From NCBI GenBank assembly GCA_029945445.1, contig JAQSCO010000057.1, forward strand, positions 418,985 to 482,984: a DNA stretch of 64,000 bases, given 5' to 3'. The notes under the pieces are model-generated. The model did no database searches, had not been told where the DNA came from, and saw only the letters and a program-made list of their open reading frames with translations. Within the stretch, counting starts at the first letter, position 1. Each line of letters starts with the position of its first letter. Positions 51,740 to 61,776 of this stretch are shown in pieces. The position numbers were made by a program, and so were the translations under genes. The stretch comes from Lacunisphaera sp. (GTDB taxonomy: Bacteria; Verrucomicrobiota; Verrucomicrobiia; Opitutales; Opitutaceae).

Positions 51740-52771
51740 ATGAATGTCGGCATCGTCGGCGCGTCGGGTTACTCCGGCGAAGTTCTGGTCAAGCTCCTCC
51801 TCGGTCATCCGCAGGTCAAACTGACGGTGGTCACGTCACGCCAGCACGCGGGCAAGCCCGTCACCCAGCTGATCCCGGCCCTGCGCGGCACGGCCGCCGA
51901 GCACCTCAAGTTCATCGACTCCGATGCCGCGGCGCTCGCCGCCCGGAACGATATCGACGTCTGGTTCCTGGCCCTGCCGCATGGCGCCGCCGCGGATTTC
52001 GCCAAAACCCTCGTGCCCGCCGGCCGCAAGGTCATTGACCTCAGCGCCGACTTCCGGATCGCGGACCTCGCGACCTATGAGAATTACTACGGCAAGCACC
52101 ACGCGCCCGAGTTGCTGGCGTCGGCCCGGTTCGTCCTGCCCGAGCTGACCGATCCCAAGTGGCGGGCCGAGATCAAGCTTGCTGCCGCGCCCGGTTGCTA
52201 CCCGACGAGCACGCTCGTGCCGCTCGTGCCGCTGCTCAAGGCCGGCCTCGTCTCCCGCGAGCACATCGTGGTGAACTCCTTCAGCGGCGTCAGCGGCGCC
52301 GGCAAGAAGGTCGACGAAATGTATCTCTACGTCGAGCGCACCGAAAGCGCCAAGGCCTACGGCCTGGTGAAGCACCGGCACCTCGCCGAGATCGAGGAGC
52401 AGCTTTCCGGCGCCGCGGGGGCGAAGATCATCGTGCAGTTCAACCCGCACCTCGCGCCCATGCGGCGCGGCATCGCCACGACCATCACCGTGCCGGCGGC
52501 CAAGGGCGCGACGATCGAGTCGCTCTACGCCGCGTGGAAGTCGGCCTACGCCGGCCGGCCTTTTATCGCCATCCTGCCCTCGGGCGAGACGCCCGATACG
52601 GCCCACGTCACCGGCACCAACCGGGTGGACCTCTCCGCCGTGCACGACGCGCGGACGGGCAACTTCGTTATCACCTCGGCCGTCGACAACCTCGTGAAGG
52701 GCGCGAGCGGCCAGGCGGTGCAGATCATGAACCTCTGGTGCGGTTTCCCCGAGACCGGCGGGCTCGCCTGA
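51740..52771 (+). CDS. argC: N-acetyl-gamma-glutamyl-phosphate reductase
   Basis: A 343-residue enzyme reducing N-acetylglutamyl phosphate with NADPH in ornithine synthesis. N-terminal Rossmann G-A-S-G-Y-S-G-E; catalytic Cys153 in A-A-P-G-C-Y-P-T-S; H-R-H-L-A-E-I near the C-terminal half. First gene of the arginine cluster. A weak CATAAT box at 51718 may be its -10. Confidence 0.95.
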   Translation: MNVGIVGASGYSGEVLVKLLLGHPQVKLTVVTSRQHAGKPVTQLIPALRGTAAEHLKFIDSDAAALAARNDIDVWFLALPHGAAADFAKTLVPAGRKVIDLSADFRIADLATYENYYGKHHAPELLASARFVLPELTDPKWRAEIKLAAAPGCYPTSTLVPLVPLLKAGLVSREHIVVNSFSGVSGAGKKVDEMYLYVERTESAKAYGLVKHRHLAEIEEQLSGAAGAKIIVQFNPHLAPMRRGIATTITVPAAKGATIESLYAAWKSAYAGRPFIAILPSGETPDTAHVTGTNRVDLSAVHDARTGNFVITSAVDNLVKGASGQAVQIMNLWCGFPETGGLA

Positions 52772-52810
52772 TAACGTTCTGCGTGCCGCGAAGAATCCAG
52801 TTATCCCCTA

Positions 52811-54043
52811 ATGACCCAACTGACCGTTACCCCTGACAGCGCCGGCATCACCGACGTCCCCGGCTTCGAATGCGCGGGCGTGCCCTGCGACATTCGCGAA
52901 AAGCACGACCTCAAGCGCCTCGATCTTGCGCTGCTTTTCTCCCTGCGGCCCTGCACGGCCGCCGGCACCTTCACCACCAACGCCGTCAAGGCCGCCCCGG
53001 TGCTGCTCTGCCAGAAACACCTCGCCGAGGGCGGGCCGTTTCACGGCATCATCGCCAACTCCGGCAACGCCAACGCCTGCACCGGCCCCGACGGCCTGCG
53101 CGACGCCCAGTTGACCGCGCAGCGCGCCGCGGCCTCGCTCAACCTCAAGCCGGCTTCGTTCTTCGTCTGCTCGACGGGCCGCATCGGCCAGCCGATGCCA
53201 ATGCCCCGGTTACTCAAGGGCCTCGAGCGCGCCGTCAGCGAGAAGGGCCGCACGCCCGCGCACGGCAAGCACGCGGCCGACGCCATCCTCACGTCCGACA
53301 CCCGCGCGAAGACCGTGACGGTGAGCTTCACCTACGACGGCAAGAAGCACTTCGTCTCCGGCATCGCCAAGGGCGCCGGCATGATCCAGCCGAACATGGC
53401 CACGATGCTCGCGTTTCTGGCGACGGACTTTTCCGTGCCGCGCAGCTTCCTCCAGAAGACGCTCTCCGAGGCCGTGAGCGGGACCTTCAACTGCATCACC
53501 GTCGACGGCGACATGAGCACCAACGACACCGTCATCATGCTGGCCAACGGCCACTCCGGCGTCAGCGTCGGTGACAAGAGCCCGCGCGAACTGCGCGTGC
53601 TCTTCGCCGAAGCCGTCTGGAAGGCGTGCGAGGCCCTGGCCGAGAAGATCGTCTCCGACGGCGAGAAGATCACCAAGGTCGTGGAATTGAAAATCAACGG
53701 CGCGGCCTCGGCCGAGGACGCCGAGAAGGTCGCGCGCGCCATCGGCAACTCGCTGCTCGTCAAATCCTCCTGGTATGGCGAGGACCCCAACTGGGGCCGT
53801 CTGGCCGATGCGGCCGGCTACGCGGGGGCCAAGCTGGTCGAGGCGAAGCTGGATATCCTCTACAACGATACGCCGGCCATGACGGCCGGCCGGCCGCATG
53901 CCGACCTGAAGCCGAAGTGGAAGGAGATCGTGAAAGCGAAGCGCTTCACCATCACGCTGAACCTCCACCTCGGGAAGGCCACGTTCCGCCTGCTGGCGAG
54001 CGACCTGACCGAGGGCTACGTGAACTACAACAAGAGCGAGTAG
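52811..54043 (+). CDS. argJ: Glutamate N-acetyltransferase (ornithine acetyltransferase)
   Basis: A 410-residue self-processing Ntn enzyme that transfers the acetyl group from N-acetylornithine to glutamate, recycling acetate and yielding ornithine. The cleavage site and nucleophile Thr198 are in Q-P-N-M-A-T-M-L. Other markers are N-S-G-N-A-N-A-C-T-G and G-E-D-P-N-W-G-R. No separate argA or argE is in the cluster, consistent with the cyclic pathway. It follows argC by 39 bp and is separated from hss by 145 bp. Confidence 0.95.
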   Translation: MTQLTVTPDSAGITDVPGFECAGVPCDIREKHDLKRLDLALLFSLRPCTAAGTFTTNAVKAAPVLLCQKHLAEGGPFHGIIANSGNANACTGPDGLRDAQLTAQRAAASLNLKPASFFVCSTGRIGQPMPMPRLLKGLERAVSEKGRTPAHGKHAADAILTSDTRAKTVTVSFTYDGKKHFVSGIAKGAGMIQPNMATMLAFLATDFSVPRSFLQKTLSEAVSGTFNCITVDGDMSTNDTVIMLANGHSGVSVGDKSPRELRVLFAEAVWKACEALAEKIVSDGEKITKVVELKINGAASAEDAEKVARAIGNSLLVKSSWYGEDPNWGRLADAAGYAGAKLVEAKLDILYNDTPAMTAGRPHADLKPKWKEIVKAKRFTITLNLHLGKATFRLLASDLTEGYVNYNKSE

Positions 54044-54188
54044 TCCGGCCGCGGATTTGTCGCCGGTTTGTTGCTCAATAATCGCTTGCAGTCGCGTGCG
54101 ATTCGCCCCCAGATTTTGTGCAAATTTTCCAATGACCGGCCGCGGGGTTTCGCAGCGGGTTCAGTAGAAAAACCAACACTTAGAATTC

Positions 54189-55646
54189 ATGCTCCCATTC
54201 AAGAATAATATCCTGTTCGTCGGCTACGGCGCCGTCGCCGAGTGCACCCTGCCCATCCTCTTCAAGCATCTCAAGGTGCCCGCGAAGAACGTCACCGTGA
54301 TGGATTTCGCCGACCGCCAGGCGAAGCTCGCGCCGTGGATCAAGAAGGGTGTCCGCTTCCTGCGCGACCGTGTCACGGAAAAGAACATGACGAAACTGCT
54401 GGCGAAGCACGTCGGCCCCGGTGACATCCTCATCGACCTCGCCTGGAACATCGACGCCTGCGAGATCCTCCAGTGGTGCCACGACCACGGCGTGCGCTAC
54501 ATCAACACCTCGACCGAGCTCTGGGATCCTTACGCGGCCGGCCCGAACGCCCACCCGACGACCAAGACGCTTTACTACCGGCACATGAACCTGCGCCGCA
54601 TGCTGAAGAAGTGGAAGACCAAGGGCCCGACCGCCGTCATCGAGCACGGTGCCAACCCCGGCCTCATCTCGCACTTCGTCAAGCAGGGCCTCATCGACAT
54701 CGGCACCAAGCTGATCAAGGACAAGAAAGCGAAGGGCGCGAAGGCCAAGAAGATCGCCGGCCTGATCGCGACCCGCCAGTTCAACGTCCTCGCGCAGGCG
54801 CTGGGCGTGAAGGTCATCCACTGCTCCGAGCGCGACACCCAGATCACCGACCAGCCGAAGCAGATCGACGAGTTCGTGAACACCTGGAGCATCGAGGGCT
54901 TCCGCGAGGAAGGCACCACGACCTCCGAGATGGGCTGGGGCACGCACGAGAAGACGCTTCCGAAAAACGCCTTCCAGCACAAGCAGGGGCCGAAGAACCA
55001 GATCTGTCTCGCCCAAATGGGCATGAACACCTGGGTCCGTTCCTTCGTCCCGAACTGGAACATCCAAGGCATGGTCGTCCGCCACGGCGAAGCCTTCACG
55101 ATTTCCGACAAGCTCACGGTCTGGAAGGACGGCAAGGCCGTCTACCGTCCGACGATGCATTACGCCTACTGCCCGTGCGACGAGGCCATCGCCTCGTTGA
55201 ACGAAATGCGCGGCTACAATTACCACCTGAACGAGAACCAGCGCATCATGAACGACGAAATCACGAGCGGCGCCGACGTCCTCGGCGCGCTGATCATGGG
55301 CCACGACTACAACTCCTGGTGGGTCGGCTCCGACCTCAGCATCGGGGAGTCCCGCCGCCTGGTCCCGCACCAGAACGCGACCACCATGCAGGTCGCCATC
55401 TCGGTGGTCGCCGCCACGATGTGGATGATCGAGAACCCGGCGGAAGGCGTCGTGGTCCCCGATGCGCTGCCGCACGACTACGTGCTCAAGATCTCGAAGC
55501 CGTATCTCGGCAAGTGGATCTCGAAGCCCTACGACTGGACCCCGCTGCAGAACCGCGACACGACCTTTGCCGGCTATAATGATGCCGACCTCGACAAGAA
55601 GGATCCGTGGCAGTTCAAGAACTTCCTCGTCACGGACGCCGGGTAA
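54189..55646 (+). CDS. hss: Homospermidine synthase
   Basis: A 485-residue enzyme resembling saccharopine-dehydrogenase-fold homospermidine synthases (I-L-F-V-G-Y-G-A-V-A at residues 8-17 binds NAD; E-H-G-A-N-P-G-L-I-S-H-F-V-K; H-H/Y-A-Y-C-P-C-D-E-A). It condenses two putrescines, releasing ammonia, to homospermidine. It lies in the arginine cluster between argJ and argB and is followed after 10 bp by the decarboxylase gene, so the pathway ornithine - putrescine - homospermidine is complete in two adjacent genes. A generic saccharopine dehydrogenase is the main alternative, but length and motifs match homospermidine synthase better. Confidence 0.85.
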   Translation: MLPFKNNILFVGYGAVAECTLPILFKHLKVPAKNVTVMDFADRQAKLAPWIKKGVRFLRDRVTEKNMTKLLAKHVGPGDILIDLAWNIDACEILQWCHDHGVRYINTSTELWDPYAAGPNAHPTTKTLYYRHMNLRRMLKKWKTKGPTAVIEHGANPGLISHFVKQGLIDIGTKLIKDKKAKGAKAKKIAGLIATRQFNVLAQALGVKVIHCSERDTQITDQPKQIDEFVNTWSIEGFREEGTTTSEMGWGTHEKTLPKNAFQHKQGPKNQICLAQMGMNTWVRSFVPNWNIQGMVVRHGEAFTISDKLTVWKDGKAVYRPTMHYAYCPCDEAIASLNEMRGYNYHLNENQRIMNDEITSGADVLGALIMGHDYNSWWVGSDLSIGESRRLVPHQNATTMQVAISVVAATMWMIENPAEGVVVPDALPHDYVLKISKPYLGKWISKPYDWTPLQNRDTTFAGYNDADLDKKDPWQFKNFLVTDAG

Positions 55647-55656
55647 CGGCCCATCG

Positions 55657-56796
55657 ATGATCACCAAAGCGCGGCTCCAGAAACTCGCCCAGCAACACGG
55701 CACTCCGCTGTTCGTCATCGATCATGACGCGCTGCGGAAGGTCTACCGGGAGTTCCGGAAGCACCTGCCGCGCATCCAGGTCTACTACGCGGTCAAGGCG
55801 AACCCTGATCCGCAGATCGTCCGTACCCTCTTCAAGGAGGGGGCGAGCTTCGACGTGGCCTCGATGCCGGAGTTCATGATTGTCTACGAGAACATCAGGA
55901 AAATGCCGGCCAAGAAGCGGCAGGACTGGATTTGGGACAAGATCATCTACGCGAATCCGACGAAGCCGACGGACACGCTCGAGCAGCTCAACAAATACAA
56001 GCCGCTCGTCACCTTCGATAACATCGAGGAGATCCACAAGATCAAGAAGCACGCGCCCAACGCGGGTCTCGCGCTGCGCCTCAAGGTGCCGAACACCGGC
56101 GCGATGGTGGAACTTTCGTCCAAGTTCGGCGCGCTGCCGGGCGAGGCGGTGGACCTCATTCTCGAGGCCGACCGCGTCGGCCTGACCGTCGAGGGCATCA
56201 GCTTCCACGTCGGCAGCCAGACGACCAACTTCGAGAACTACGTTCAGGCGCTGAACCTGACGGCCAACATCTTCAAGGAGGCGCGTGAGCGCGGTTACAC
56301 GAAGATGAACCTTCTTGATATCGGCGGCGGTTTTCCGGCGCCCTATGATTCCTCCGTCCGCCCCTTCAAGGAACTGGCCAAGGTCATCAACACCGAGCTC
56401 GACCGGCTGTTCCCGAAGGACATCCAGGTGCTCGCCGAGCCCGGCCGCTTCCTCGCCGCCGTTTGCGGCACAAGTGTCGCGTCCGTCATCGGCAAGGCCG
56501 TGCGCGATGGCAAGACGAGCTACTACATCAACGACGGCGTCTACCACACCTACTCGGGCGTCATCTTCGACCACTGCAAGTATCCGGTGAAGGCCTTCAA
56601 GAAGGGCCCGACGAGCCTGTCTTGTGTGTTCGGCCCCACCTGCGATGCGCTCGACGTCGTGTCGATGGCCGAGAACCTGCCCAACCTCGAGCGCGGCGAC
56701 CTCGTCTACAGTGTGAACATCGGCGCCTACAGCCACGCGTCGGCGACCTGGTTCAACGGTTTCCCGCCGGCCAAGGTCGTCCACGTGAACCAGTAG
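55657..56796 (+). CDS. Ornithine decarboxylase-type enzyme (group IV)
   Basis: A 379-residue PLP enzyme of the alanine-racemase-fold decarboxylases. PLP Lys47 is in [13 protein letters not shown] (184-188), D-I-G-G-G-F-P (221-227), E-P-G-R (261-264) and the catalytic Cys329 in G-P-T-C-D-A-L-D follow. The C-D-x-L-D pattern is that of ornithine or lysine/ornithine decarboxylases; diaminopimelate decarboxylases have C-E-S-x-D and carboxynorspermidine decarboxylases a different loop. The gene lies between hss and argB in the arginine cluster, so ornithine is the likely substrate (inference). Automated labels of diaminopimelate decarboxylase would be wrong. Confidence 0.8.
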
Positions 56797-56815
56797 GCGG
56801 TCCGCCGCCTCCGCG

Positions 56816-57697
56816 ATGGAAATTTCCGAAGTCATCTCCAAGGCCAAGGTGCTGCTCGAGGCGCTGCCTTACATTCAGGATTTCAAGGGCTCGATCTTCG
56901 TCGTCAAATATGGCGGCAGTTTCATGGACGATCCCGACCCGACCGTGCGCCTCCGCGTGGCCACGGACCTCGCCTTCCTCGCGGCGGTCGGCATCAACGT
57001 CGTCGTCGTGCACGGCGGCGGCAAGGCCATCAGCCGCGCGATGGACGGCTCGGGCCTCAAGGCGAATTTCATCAACGGCCTGCGCGTCACCGACGAGGCG
57101 ACCATCGCCATCGTGAAGAAGACGCTCGACGAGGTCGTGAACAAGGACGTGTGCGACATGCTCACGTCCATCAAGGCCCGGCCCAAGGGCCTGCCGGGCG
57201 ACACCGTGCTGGTTTGCGAAAAGCTCCAGGCCGACGACGACGGCAATCCCGTCGATCTCGGTTACGTCGGGGACGTGACCGAGGTGAAGGTGAAGCTCAT
57301 CAAGAAGGAAATCGCCGACGGCTACATGCCCGTGATCTCGCCGGTCGCCGAGGGGCTCGATGGCAAGCCCTACAACGTGAACGCCGATACGGCCGCCGGG
57401 CGCGTGGCGAGCGCGCTGCGGGCGCGCCGGCTGGTCTACATGAGCGACGTGCCCGGCCTGCTCGCCGACCCGAAGAAGCCGGACTCGCTCATCGCCACGC
57501 TCAAGATCAGCGAAGTCGACGGCCTGAAGAAGAAGGGCGTCATCGACAAGGGCATGCGCCCGAAGGTGCAGAGCGCCGTGCGCGCGCTGCAGGAAGGCGT
57601 GCAGCGCGTCCACTTCGTCGACGGCCGGATGCCGCACAGCCTGCTGCTGGAGATTTTTACCGACCAGGGTGTAGGCACTGAAATCGTGCAAGGCTGA
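56816..57697 (+). CDS. argB: Acetylglutamate kinase
   Basis: A 293-residue kinase phosphorylating N-acetylglutamate, the committed step of ornithine synthesis. V-K-Y-G-G-S-F-M (about 28-35; G-S in place of the usual G-N/G-A), [19 protein letters not shown] and the late Lys motif are present. The N-terminal helix suggests the hexameric, arginine-inhibited type. It follows the decarboxylase gene by 19 bp. Confidence 0.95.
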
Positions 57698-57767
57698 GCT
57701 GGTGCCCGGCGCATTGTGCGCGTGCATTTGCCGCCCTGATACATAAGCTCCGCCTCTTCCCTTTACC

Positions 57768-59000
57768 ATGAGCCAGCCCGCCATCGTCCGCACGAATACC
57801 GCCGAGCTTTACGACGCCTACGTCATGAAGAATTACGGCCGCCCGCCGCTCACGATCGTGCGCGGCGCGGGCGTCAGCGTGTGGGATGACACCGGCCGCG
57901 AATACCTCGACTTCACTTCCGGCGTGGCCGTGGCCGCGCTCGGGCACTGCCATCCGGTCTGGGTCGAGGCCATCCGCCGGCAGGCCGGCGAGCTGATCCA
58001 TTGCAGCAATCTCTTCCGCAATCCCAACCAGGGCGAACTGGCGCGGCGGCTCGTGCAGCGCGCCGGTCCCGGCCGGGTCTTCTTCTGCAATAGCGGCACC
58101 GAGGCCAATGAGGGGCTGATCAAGCTCGCGCGGCTGCATGGCGTGCGCAAATCCGGCGCCGAAGCGAAGTGCTTCAAGATCATCTGCGCGAAGAACGCTT
58201 TTCATGGCCGCACCTTCGGTGGCATGAGCGCCACGCCGCAGGAGAAGATCCAGAGGGGTTTCCGGCCGATGCTACCGGGCTTCGCCTTCGGCGAGCTGAA
58301 CAACCTGCAGAGTTTTGCCGACCTGGTGGACGAGAACACCGCGGCCATTTTCCTCGAGACCATCCAGGGCGAGGGCGGCATCACGCCCTGCACGGACGAA
58401 TTTCTCTGGGGCCTGCGCCAGCTGTGCGACCAGCACAACCTGCTGCTCATGCTCGACGAGGTGCAGTGCGGGCTCGGCCGCACCGGCACGTTCTACGCGT
58501 TCCAACATTCCGGCATCCGCGCGGACGCCATTGGCATGGCCAAGGGCCTCGGCGGCGGCTACCCGATGGGCGCCATCTGGGCCGCCGAGAAGCACGCCGA
58601 GCTGTTCACGCCCGGCTCGCACGGCTCGACCTTCGGTGGCACGCCACTGGCCTGCGCGGCGGCGCTGGCGGTGCTCGAGGTCATCGAGCGGGAGAACATT
58701 CTTCAAAAAGTGCAGGCCAACGGGGTCGCGTGGAAAGCCGAATTGGAGAAACTCATGGCGGAGTTCCCGCAGCAGCTGAAGGCCGTCACGGGCCGCGGCT
58801 ACATGATCGGCCTCCTCATGCATGGCGAACCGGCGCCGTATATCACGGCGCTGCGGGAGGCGGGCCTGCTGGCTCCGTCCGCCGGGACCAACACCATCCG
58901 CTTGCTTCCGCCGCTGATTGCGACCAAGGAACAGCTGGACCGGGCCACGGCCATCTTCCGGTCGGTCCTCGCCAAGAACCCCCCCGCACCCGCGCCATGA
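57768..59000 (+). CDS. argD: Acetylornithine aminotransferase
   Basis: A 410-residue PLP-dependent class III aminotransferase. F-C-N-S-G-T-E-A-N-E, L-D-E-V-Q-C-G-L-G-R-T-G and the PLP lysine in M-A-K-G-L-G-G-G-Y-P identify the family; position in the cluster identifies the substrate. The stop overlaps argF by 4 bp (ATGA). Confidence 0.93.
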   Translation: MSQPAIVRTNTAELYDAYVMKNYGRPPLTIVRGAGVSVWDDTGREYLDFTSGVAVAALGHCHPVWVEAIRRQAGELIHCSNLFRNPNQGELARRLVQRAGPGRVFFCNSGTEANEGLIKLARLHGVRKSGAEAKCFKIICAKNAFHGRTFGGMSATPQEKIQRGFRPMLPGFAFGELNNLQSFADLVDENTAAIFLETIQGEGGITPCTDEFLWGLRQLCDQHNLLLMLDEVQCGLGRTGTFYAFQHSGIRADAIGMAKGLGGGYPMGAIWAAEKHAELFTPGSHGSTFGGTPLACAAALAVLEVIERENILQKVQANGVAWKAELEKLMAEFPQQLKAVTGRGYMIGLLMHGEPAPYITALREAGLLAPSAGTNTIRLLPPLIATKEQLDRATAIFRSVLAKNPPAPAP

Positions 59001-59932
59001 GGCATTTTCTCCAGGAGACGGATTTTTCCCGCGCCGAGGCCGGCGAGATTTTTGCCCTCGCGCGGCATTTCAAGCGGCAGCGCGGCGCGCACGAGAAACC
59101 GCTCGCCGGGCAGACCTGGGCGATGATTTTCGCCAAGTCGAGCACGCGCACGCGTGTGTCGTTCGAGGTCGGCATCCACGAGCTCGGTGGCAATCCGCTT
59201 TTTCTCAACACCAACGACATCCAGATCGGCCGCGGCGAAACCATTGCCGATACGGCGAAGGTGTTGTCGCGTTTCGTGCACGGGCTGGTGGTCCGCACCT
59301 ATGCGCAGAAAGACCTGACGGACCTCGCGGAGCACGGCGGTCTGCCGGTGGTGAACGCGCTGACGGACTTTCTCCATCCCTGCCAGGTCTACGCCGATGC
59401 CTTCACGGCGGCGGAACGCTGGGCCGGGCCGTCCGGCGACCTGATGGACGCGCTGGCGGGCCGCAAGGTGGCTTTCCTGGGCGACACGGGCTTCAACATG
59501 GCGAACTCGTGGATCCTCGGCGCCGGCCTTTTCGGCATGAAGGTGTCGCTGGGCGGACCCGCCAGCGCCGCTCCCGGCCGGGAAATTAGCGAACTCGCGG
59601 CGAAAGCCGGGGCAAAGTTTGAATTCACCAGCGACCCGTTTGAGGCGGTGGCGGGCGCCGACCTCGTCTACACCGACGTCTGGACCAGCATGGGGCAGGA
59701 GAGCGAGGCCGCCGAGCGGCGCCGGCGCCTGCTGCCGTTCCAGGTGACCGGAAAACTTTTTGCCACGGCGAAACCGGATGCGTTCTTCATGCATTGTCTG
59801 CCGGCGCATGCGGGCGAAGAGGTGACGCAGGAGGTGCTCGACAATCCGCGCTGCGTGATCTTCGACGAGGCGGAGAACCGCCTGCACGTCCAGAAAGCCA
59901 TCCTCGCCCTGCTCGCGCGGCACCGCGCCTGA
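58997..59932 (+). CDS. argF: Ornithine carbamoyltransferase
   Basis: A 311-residue enzyme making citrulline from ornithine and carbamoyl phosphate. S-T-R-T-R (49-53) binds carbamoyl phosphate, H-P-C-Q-V is present, and H-C-L-P-A-H near the C-terminus binds ornithine. It overlaps argD by 4 bp. It competes with the neighbouring decarboxylase for ornithine. It ends 6 bp from the convergent pseudopilin gene. Confidence 0.95.
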   Translation: MRHFLQETDFSRAEAGEIFALARHFKRQRGAHEKPLAGQTWAMIFAKSSTRTRVSFEVGIHELGGNPLFLNTNDIQIGRGETIADTAKVLSRFVHGLVVRTYAQKDLTDLAEHGGLPVVNALTDFLHPCQVYADAFTAAERWAGPSGDLMDALAGRKVAFLGDTGFNMANSWILGAGLFGMKVSLGGPASAAPGREISELAAKAGAKFEFTSDPFEAVAGADLVYTDVWTSMGQESEAAERRRRLLPFQVTGKLFATAKPDAFFMHCLPAHAGEEVTQEVLDNPRCVIFDEAENRLHVQKAILALLARHRA

Positions 59933-59938
59933 GCCCGG

Positions 59939-60427
59939 CTACTGCTCGAGGACCAGCATCACGCGGTTTGGTCCCGTCGAGACCACGCGGAAATTCCCGG
60001 TGGTAAGATCGCCGTCGTCCAGCTTGGCATCAATCAGGGCCAGTTGCGTATCGTCGCAAGTGTAACCAGAAATGGAGATGCCCGCGGTGATCCCGAAATT
60101 GCCCTTGTCCCAATTCCAGCGACCGCCGATGGGGGTCACTTTCTGCCAAACATCGGTCTTGAAATCTCCGGACATGCTGGGCGGCACCACCCCGGCGCCA
60201 ACGTTGGCCGGCCAAGTGCCATTTTGTGTGCTATAAACTTCAAAGGCTTGGGCGAAGACCCGAAAATCATTCACGATCCGGCTGTTCTCAGAGGCCTGCC
60301 GCACACGCTGGAAGGCCGGGATGGCGAGCGCCGCCAGCAGACCGATGATGACCACGACGATCATGATTTCCACGAGCGTGAATCCGCGCGTGGCAGAGGA
60401 ACCGGGCCGGGGTTGGGCGGGCCTCAT
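59939..60427 (-). CDS. Type IV pilin-like/pseudopilin protein
   Basis: A 162-residue protein with a prepilin peptidase site R-G-F-T-L-V-E-I-M (cleavage after Gly15, Glu at mature position 5) and a long hydrophobic helix (I-V-V-V-I-I-G-L-L-A-A-L-A-I). ATG 60445 would add six residues. The globular C-terminal domain carries one visible Cys and resembles major-pseudopilin type proteins exported by type II systems. It is isolated from other pilus genes, converges on argF and diverges from argG. Confidence 0.82.
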   Translation of the reverse strand: MRPAQPRPGSSATRGFTLVEIMIVVVIIGLLAALAIPAFQRVRQASENSRIVNDFRVFAQAFEVYSTQNGTWPANVGAGVVPPSMSGDFKTDVWQKVTPIGGRWNWDKGNFGITAGISISGYTCDDTQLALIDAKLDDGDLTTGNFRVVSTGPNRVMLVLEQ

Positions 60428-60549
60428 GGGAGTGGCTAAAATCATGCGGACACCGAGGCAGAAGGCAACGCGCTTAGCGGATAACTGACTCGCCCTGCGC
60501 CATTTTTACTTTGCGCGGTCGCGGTGAATATCAACACTCGGACTTCACC

Positions 60550-61776
<1,227 letters not shown>

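Follow-up and report, generated by a model that had tools for sequence, protein, structure and literature searches.

In a 64,000-nt stretch of DNA from Lacunisphaera sp. (Opitutaceae; GenBank assembly GCA_029945445.1, contig JAQSCO010000057.1, positions 418,985 to 482,984), hereafter the window, we identified a predicted homospermidine synthase gene (hss) followed by a predicted ornithine decarboxylase-type gene (odc) between argJ and argB of an arginine biosynthesis cluster. We favour, with moderate confidence, the interpretation that hss-odc forms a movable module of two genes for homospermidine synthesis, which has passed between lineages, occupies the argJ/argB junction with its own promoter and also feeds argB (and argD and argF). 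In such a module Odc would convert ornithine to putrescine, and Hss, with bound NAD, would join two putrescines to sym-homospermidine. Transcription would begin in the argJ-hss gap, run via odc into argB and probably further into argD and argF. The module promoter would in this way also supply the middle arginine genes, with argC-argJ being transcribed from upstream. The likely transcription unit would be hss-odc-argB(-argD-argF) and not argC to argF.

Cluster layout and predicted enzymes

The order argC-argJ-hss-odc-argB-argD-argF on one strand, as described in the initial annotation, is real, and the spacings given there for hss-odc (10 bp) and odc-argB (19 bp) match both the open reading frames and the DNA (Table 1). 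The remaining gaps are 39 bp (argC-argJ), 145 bp (argJ-hss) and 70 bp (argB-argD), and argD and argF overlap by 4 bp. In gene content and in the order argC-argJ-argB-argD-argF the window is like bacterial arg gene clusters of the argCJBDF type, but it differs from them in the insertion of hss-odc between argJ and argB.

Residues 8–483 of the 485-residue hss product align to a solved homospermidine synthase from Blastochloris viridis (BvHSS; PDB 6s65/4tvb), with 6s65 as the best solved match, and both Pfam saccharopine-dehydrogenase domains score above cut-off (PF03435, 93 bits; PF16653, 109 bits); an NCBIfam search of the protein matched no family. According to the accessible part of the BvHSS study (PMC4725965), variants at N162, E237, H296 and E298 are inactive, W229 and E117 are further catalytic or pocket residues, and one site is highly specific for putrescine. 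Residues of this catalytic or pocket set are present in the window hss as E110, N156, W233, E241, H299 and E301, and all six are invariant in the 81 aligned hss loci (81/81). The window protein differs from BvHSS in coming from another phylum and in an Ala that aligns, by eye, with the loop residue Tyr123. From this likeness hss is predicted to be a bacterial homospermidine synthase.

The odc product contains the domains Orn_Arg_deC_N (PF02784, 185 bits) and Orn_DAP_Arg_deC (PF00278, 57.7 bits), and its nearest solved structures are the lysine/ornithine decarboxylases 2plj and 5gjm, followed by eukaryotic ornithine decarboxylase. Lys47, His184, Glu261, Arg264, Asp305, Cys329 and Asp330, presumably the active-site motif residues of alanine-racemase-fold decarboxylases, are the sole letters at their positions in 77 sequences, gaps aside. 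The window odc is alike to 2plj and 5gjm in domains and conserved motifs but differs in adjoining hss and arg genes; its substrate is predicted, and the choice between ornithine and lysine is not settled by sequence alone. Two other assignments were rejected, namely diaminopimelate decarboxylase (NCBIfam lysA, 166 bits versus a cut-off of 298) and carboxynorspermidine/carboxyspermidine decarboxylase (nspC, 26.8 bits versus 409); the genome has a separate lysA (444 bits) some 47 kb further downstream, beyond the window. The enzyme assignments of the initial annotation and its argument that ornithine is shared by both pathways thus hold as predictions, and the coupled regulation proposed with them holds only in part.

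Table 1. Features of the arginine cluster and of its downstream neighbours (positions in the window).
Feature	Position	Strand	Basis or description
argC, N-acetyl-gamma-glutamyl-phosphate reductase	51740..52771	+	NCBIfam TIGR01850, 370 bits, cut-off 233.6
argJ, ornithine acetyltransferase	52811..54043	+	NCBIfam NF003802, 417 bits, cut-off 351
Promoter-like block in argJ-hss gap (putative)	54076..54115	+	A/T-rich CAATAAT, TTGCAG (54086-54091), 18 nt, CAGATT (54110-54115)
hss, predicted homospermidine synthase, saccharopine-dehydrogenase-like type	54189..55646	+	PDB 6s65, E 9e-100
odc, predicted alanine-racemase-fold ornithine (or lysine/ornithine) decarboxylase	55657..56796	+	PDB 2plj, E 3e-80; PF02784, PF00278
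argB, N-acetylglutamate kinase	56816..57697	+	NCBIfam TIGR00761, 217 bits, cut-off 151
argD, acetylornithine transaminase	57768..59000	+	NCBIfam TIGR00707, 464 bits, cut-off 410
argF, ornithine carbamoyltransferase	58997..59932	+	NCBIfam NF001986, 394 bits, cut-off 306
GspG/pilin-like gene	59939..60445	-	separates argF from argG
argG	60550..61776		downstream of the opposite-strand pilin-like gene

Distribution and arrangements of hss-odc

Two comparison sets were used. The first comprised 81 loci (the best 80 of 138 relative-encoding loci, one genome per species, plus the window), annotated by tblastn with exclusion of matches that covered less than 75% of the query or were of low identity. 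The second comprised 95 related genomes including the window's own, 21 of which belong to its genus. odc is located 3' of hss on the same strand in 79/81 loci, with a median gap of 26 bp (-1 to 657 bp) in the 77 where it was measurable; it is also visible after hss in L100 and L144, which are cut by contig ends. Locus L137 has no odc in the fetched DNA, and L159 carries tandem hss-like genes (69% and 50% identity to that of the window), with no odc found in the locus. By record title the 81 loci derive from Verrucomicrobiota, Planctomycetota, Myxococcota, Elusimicrobiota, Gemmatimonadota and Acidobacteriota, some possibly being mislabelled metagenome bins.

An argC, argJ or argB match (≥75% length) was present in the fetched DNA of 37/81 hss loci, all within one 41-row set of a quick HSS tree (Shimodaira–Hasegawa-like approximate likelihood ratio test support 90) whose members are titled Opitutaceae, Opitutae, Opitutia, Lacunisphaera, Oleiharenicola or only Verrucomicrobia. 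Five Opitutaceae-titled loci (L133, L140, L144, L152, L157) had no such match in the fetched DNA. Among the genomes, hss was found in 29/95, including 12/21 of the window's genus (Lacunisphaera/Oleiharenicola kin), its own counted. All twelve show or fit the order of the window (nine on one contig, two split over contig ends and one in which an insert separates argJ from hss), and a genome of another genus (G059) shares it, so that the arrangement is not due to chance.

Other Opitutaceae have a second order, argC-hss-odc-(inverted argJ-like gene)-argB-argD-argF-argG. Leaving G029 and G059 aside, 15 other genomes of the family carry hss: in ten of them the inverted gene and argB are found no more than about 8 kb from odc, in G041 no more than about 20 kb, and in G021, G030, G044 and G050 hss and argB are on separate contigs. 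In the locus chosen for a family search, the inverted gene (L113:12643-13986) belongs to the ArgJ family (PF01960, 350 bits) but scores below both NCBIfam ArgJ cut-offs (346 versus 351; 255 versus 298). In many Opitutaceae such a divergent gene is present where the order-typical argJ is missing, and G029 has both kinds. At the level of the order, argJ adjoins argB in 21 of the 24 genomes that have both genes, with 8–73 bp between match ends.

Upstream block and candidate transcription unit

The 12 argJ-hss gaps that we compared (138–308 bp) align poorly outside a block resembling AATAATCGCTTGC and positions close to it. The argC-hss gaps of the other arrangement have in common AAAA..CTTGTCAC, followed after about 18 nt by CACAGT or CAGAGT. 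A transferable weight matrix for the block largely failed. A two-box pattern (CTTG(T/C), 18–20 nt, NANA(G/T)T, within 150 nt of the start), which was shaped post hoc from the alignments after that failure and whose rates are therefore descriptive only, precedes hss in 25/36 arg-linked loci (L126, with no upstream DNA, was left out), among them 8/10 loci of the window's arrangement, and in 9/20 non-arg-linked Verrucomicrobiota loci; the dinucleotide-shuffle mean was 0.1 for the arg-linked set and for these other Verrucomicrobiota. In the arg-linked set the pattern was never found before odc (n = 36), argB (n = 31), argD (n = 28), argF (n = 24), argG (n = 20) or argC (n = 27), and it is this contrast between hss and the other genes that is informative. 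In G011 (L097, labelled Oleiharenicola), 3.4 kb of other DNA (L097:6607-10000) lies between argJ and hss, and the block is kept about 105 bp before hss despite this insert; the single reading frame of the insert that was tried had no Pfam match. A riboswitch or other known RNA was rejected for the region, all Rfam matches being sub-threshold.

The odc-argB gap is 5–36 bp in 7/9 loci of the window's arrangement, which makes coupling of hss-odc to the downstream genes plausible. As this gap is mostly tight and hss appears to have its own start, the coupling may run opposite to the first picture, with a polyamine promoter feeding argB rather than an arginine promoter feeding hss. The initial annotation had placed the pair and its arg neighbours in one transcription unit; of this, the link of hss-odc with argB stands as plausible, and the link with argJ is weakened by the length of the argJ-hss gaps, by the occurrence of the block where hss is not beside argJ and by the insert in G011. 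The two long odc-argB gaps (about 170 bp; L101, L168) contain, by eye, an inverted repeat TGTCATTCTGAGCG...AGAATGACA or similar.

Loci without the pair, probable loss and exchange

In six hss-less congeners (G004, G005, G009, G012, G014, G015) and in G047, a genome of another genus without hss-odc, argJ adjoins argB, with gaps including the stop codon of 109–238 bp and 211 bp, respectively. Three further hss-less congeners (G001, G008, G013; two of them ≤80% complete) yielded neither an argJ match nor an argB nearby. The seven argJ-argB gaps (L039, L042, L043, L044, L046, L054, L055) have in common a near-invariant block of about 40 bp with the consensus TGCATTTTGTTAGTGAAATCTGCGCGCATTGCCTTAACA; among the matches listed, candidate hss or odc remnants in these gaps had E values of about 0.1 or worse. 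The 27-base core of the element (four open positions) occurs once per genome, with no mismatch, in all seven. It is absent from all 29 genomes that carry hss (13 of them of the window's arrangement), and the rest of the 95 genomes contain it just once, with three mismatches (G033). With only one copy per genome, the element is unlikely to mark a regulon. Our guess is that the element is a putative promoter, operator or leader for argB, and its pattern looks as if argB without the pair needs another start.

In G029, odc lies between argJ and argB, and the argJ-odc gap (L192) retains, by eye, the first and last codons of hss in different frames; we interpret this gap as the remnant of an hss that was deleted in place, with odc kept. 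The other HSS of this genome is 52% identical and is encoded on another contig. On the argC+argJ+argB tree (computed without G001, G008, G013, G052 and G053) the presence label needs 2–3 changes, just one being forced by well supported branches. The HSS and ArgB trees are discordant: the HSS of G059 lies among its counterparts from G003, G016 and G020 (support 100/98). An approximately unbiased (AU) test, computed without G029, rejected the HSS sequences of the genus as one clade (p = 3.5e-5; with G059 added p = 4e-4, tested after the tree had been seen). In the 31 loci where hss and argB co-occur, distances of hss correlate with those of argB, argC and argD at 0.43–0.57 and those of odc at 0.26–0.40, compared with 0.70–0.85 among argB, argC and argD themselves. 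Loss alone was rejected for the phyletic pattern, since the element common to G047 and the six congeners and the HSS tree also suggest exchange. Given the deletion in G029, the label changes and the tree discordance, the pair was probably both lost and exchanged between lineages.

Several observations weigh against a module with its own promoter. Besides its post hoc origin, the two-box pattern is absent in 11/36 arg-linked loci and in 24/24 remaining loci (neither arg-linked nor Verrucomicrobiota). A strict scan of the region for the sigma-70 consensus was negative, and the predicted folding of the argJ-hss gap did not surpass that of shuffled sequences (z 0.62). A weight matrix of 42 columns, derived from loci of the other arrangement, exceeded the shuffle 95% level in only 3/11 Lacunisphaera-type loci, the window not among them, in 2/21 other Verrucomicrobiota and in 4/25 remaining loci. 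In L101 and L168 the odc-argB gap widens to 167 and 174 bp, the argB-argD gap of the window is 70 bp, and in the other arrangement the inverted argJ-like gene intervenes between odc and argB, so that co-transcription of these two genes cannot be general. Distances of argG correlate with those of the other arg genes at only 0.33–0.50, no better than those of hss. Finally, the element is missing in more distant hss-less genomes with adjacent argJ and argB (among them G028, G032, G039, G052 and G053); argB is therefore not always in need of it, and we hold the module interpretation, as well as the two-form junction considered below, slightly lower for this reason.

Alternative interpretations

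The genome of the window probably has other polyamine routes. It encodes a biosynthetic arginine decarboxylase SpeA (739 bits, cut-off 624), an agmatine-deiminase-family protein (PF04371, 409 bits) and an arginase/agmatinase-family protein, which makes an arginine-based route to putrescine likely. It also encodes a deoxyhypusine-synthase-like protein (L209:6403-7473; PF01916, 129 bits) beside a waaA-like gene, with a WGK motif that we take to be catalytic. No match to S-adenosylmethionine (AdoMet) decarboxylase was found in this genome, nor any nspC above cut-off. The main polyamine route might accordingly consist of arginine decarboxylase, agmatine deiminase and the deoxyhypusine-synthase-like protein, leaving hss-odc accessory, and we regard this as a real but minority possibility. 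The six hss-less congeners with adjacent argJ and argB likewise have PF04371 and PF01916 matches, as would fit such a route; PF01916 matches in 46/95 genomes overall. Against it, the deoxyhypusine-synthase-like protein scores far below the cut-offs (108 versus 450 for the best curated equivalog), and PF04371 presumably also takes in deiminases other than agmatine deiminase. In the hss-less G052, a deoxyhypusine-synthase family gene (L203:1501-2400) exceeds the NCBIfam cut-off for 1,9-bis(guanidino)-5-aza-nonane synthase (537.8 versus 500).

SpeY is described, in the accessible part of PMC9992855, as a deoxyhypusine-synthase-like homospermidine synthase, that is, a non-homologous enzyme with the same product as hss, which belongs to a different family. 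Since a distant relative of that family is encoded elsewhere in this genome, homospermidine and other polyamines need not all come from hss-odc. The initial proposal that arginine and polyamine output are tied is weakened both by this genome's likely second route to putrescine and by the six congeners and G047, which keep argJ-argB without the pair. None of the 95 genomes combines hss (n = 29) with nspC above cut-off (n = 15) or AdoMet decarboxylase (n = 7), an exclusion that is confounded by kinship, hss being found only in the window's family and nspC mostly outside it.

A tentative extension, which we consider rather unlikely, is that the argJ/argB junction exists in two forms exchanged by recombination, either a homospermidine cassette whose own promoter drives argB or, where the cassette is absent, the element of about 40 bp that takes over argB. 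If this were true, a single allele would set both the capacity for polyamine synthesis and the wiring of the arginine genes.

The preferred module interpretation also has to be weighed against a neutral one, in which hss-odc was exchanged horizontally and lodged between argJ and argB with no regulatory coupling. The 44/81 loci whose fetched DNA showed no argC, argJ or argB match (≥75% length; L112 and L120 carry partial matches, and contig ends limit others), the patchy presence of hss, the discordant trees and the four genomes with hss and argB on different contigs are consistent with it. We nevertheless judge it unlikely, as the arg linkage is kept across many Opitutaceae genera in two arrangements and odc-argB gaps are mostly below 40 bp in the window's type.

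Distinctly unlikely, in our view, is a single argC-to-argF operon with its promoter before argC, in which arginine demand would set polyamine output. The common strand, the short argC-argJ and odc-argB gaps and the lack of a terminator-like site on the + strand between argJ and hss in our scan fit such an operon; the long argJ-hss gaps with their promoter-like block, the insert in G011 and the two-box pattern before hss where no arg neighbour was found speak against it. So does the lack of an ArgR-family repressor gene: PF01316 had no match in this genome and matched in 9/14 controls, so that an ArgR-controlled arginine regulon is not supported. That the decarboxylase prefers lysine or takes both substrates, the pair making cadaverine-derived triamines besides or instead of homospermidine, is suggested by the dual specificity of its nearest solved structures but appears very doubtful given that odc so regularly follows hss, that the window odc adjoins ornithine-forming genes and that the BvHSS site, in the accessible part of PMC4725965, is highly specific for putrescine.

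Relation to known systems and implications

Polyamines of Verrucomicrobia and other phyla were reportedly covered by Hosoya et al. in 2006. In the accessible parts of the open-access literature on homospermidine synthase in connection with Verrucomicrobia, Opitutaceae polyamines, arginine clusters or horizontal transfer we found no description of this arrangement and no polyamine measurements for Opitutaceae; the description of Lacunisphaera (PMC5303756) does not contain the words polyamine, spermidine, putrescine or arginine.

Ornithine is the branch point between arginine and polyamines. As some species of the family have hss-odc within their arginine cluster and close relatives lack it at that site, these bacteria provide matched pairs that could be used to learn how the ornithine branch is set and what role homospermidine has in Verrucomicrobiota.

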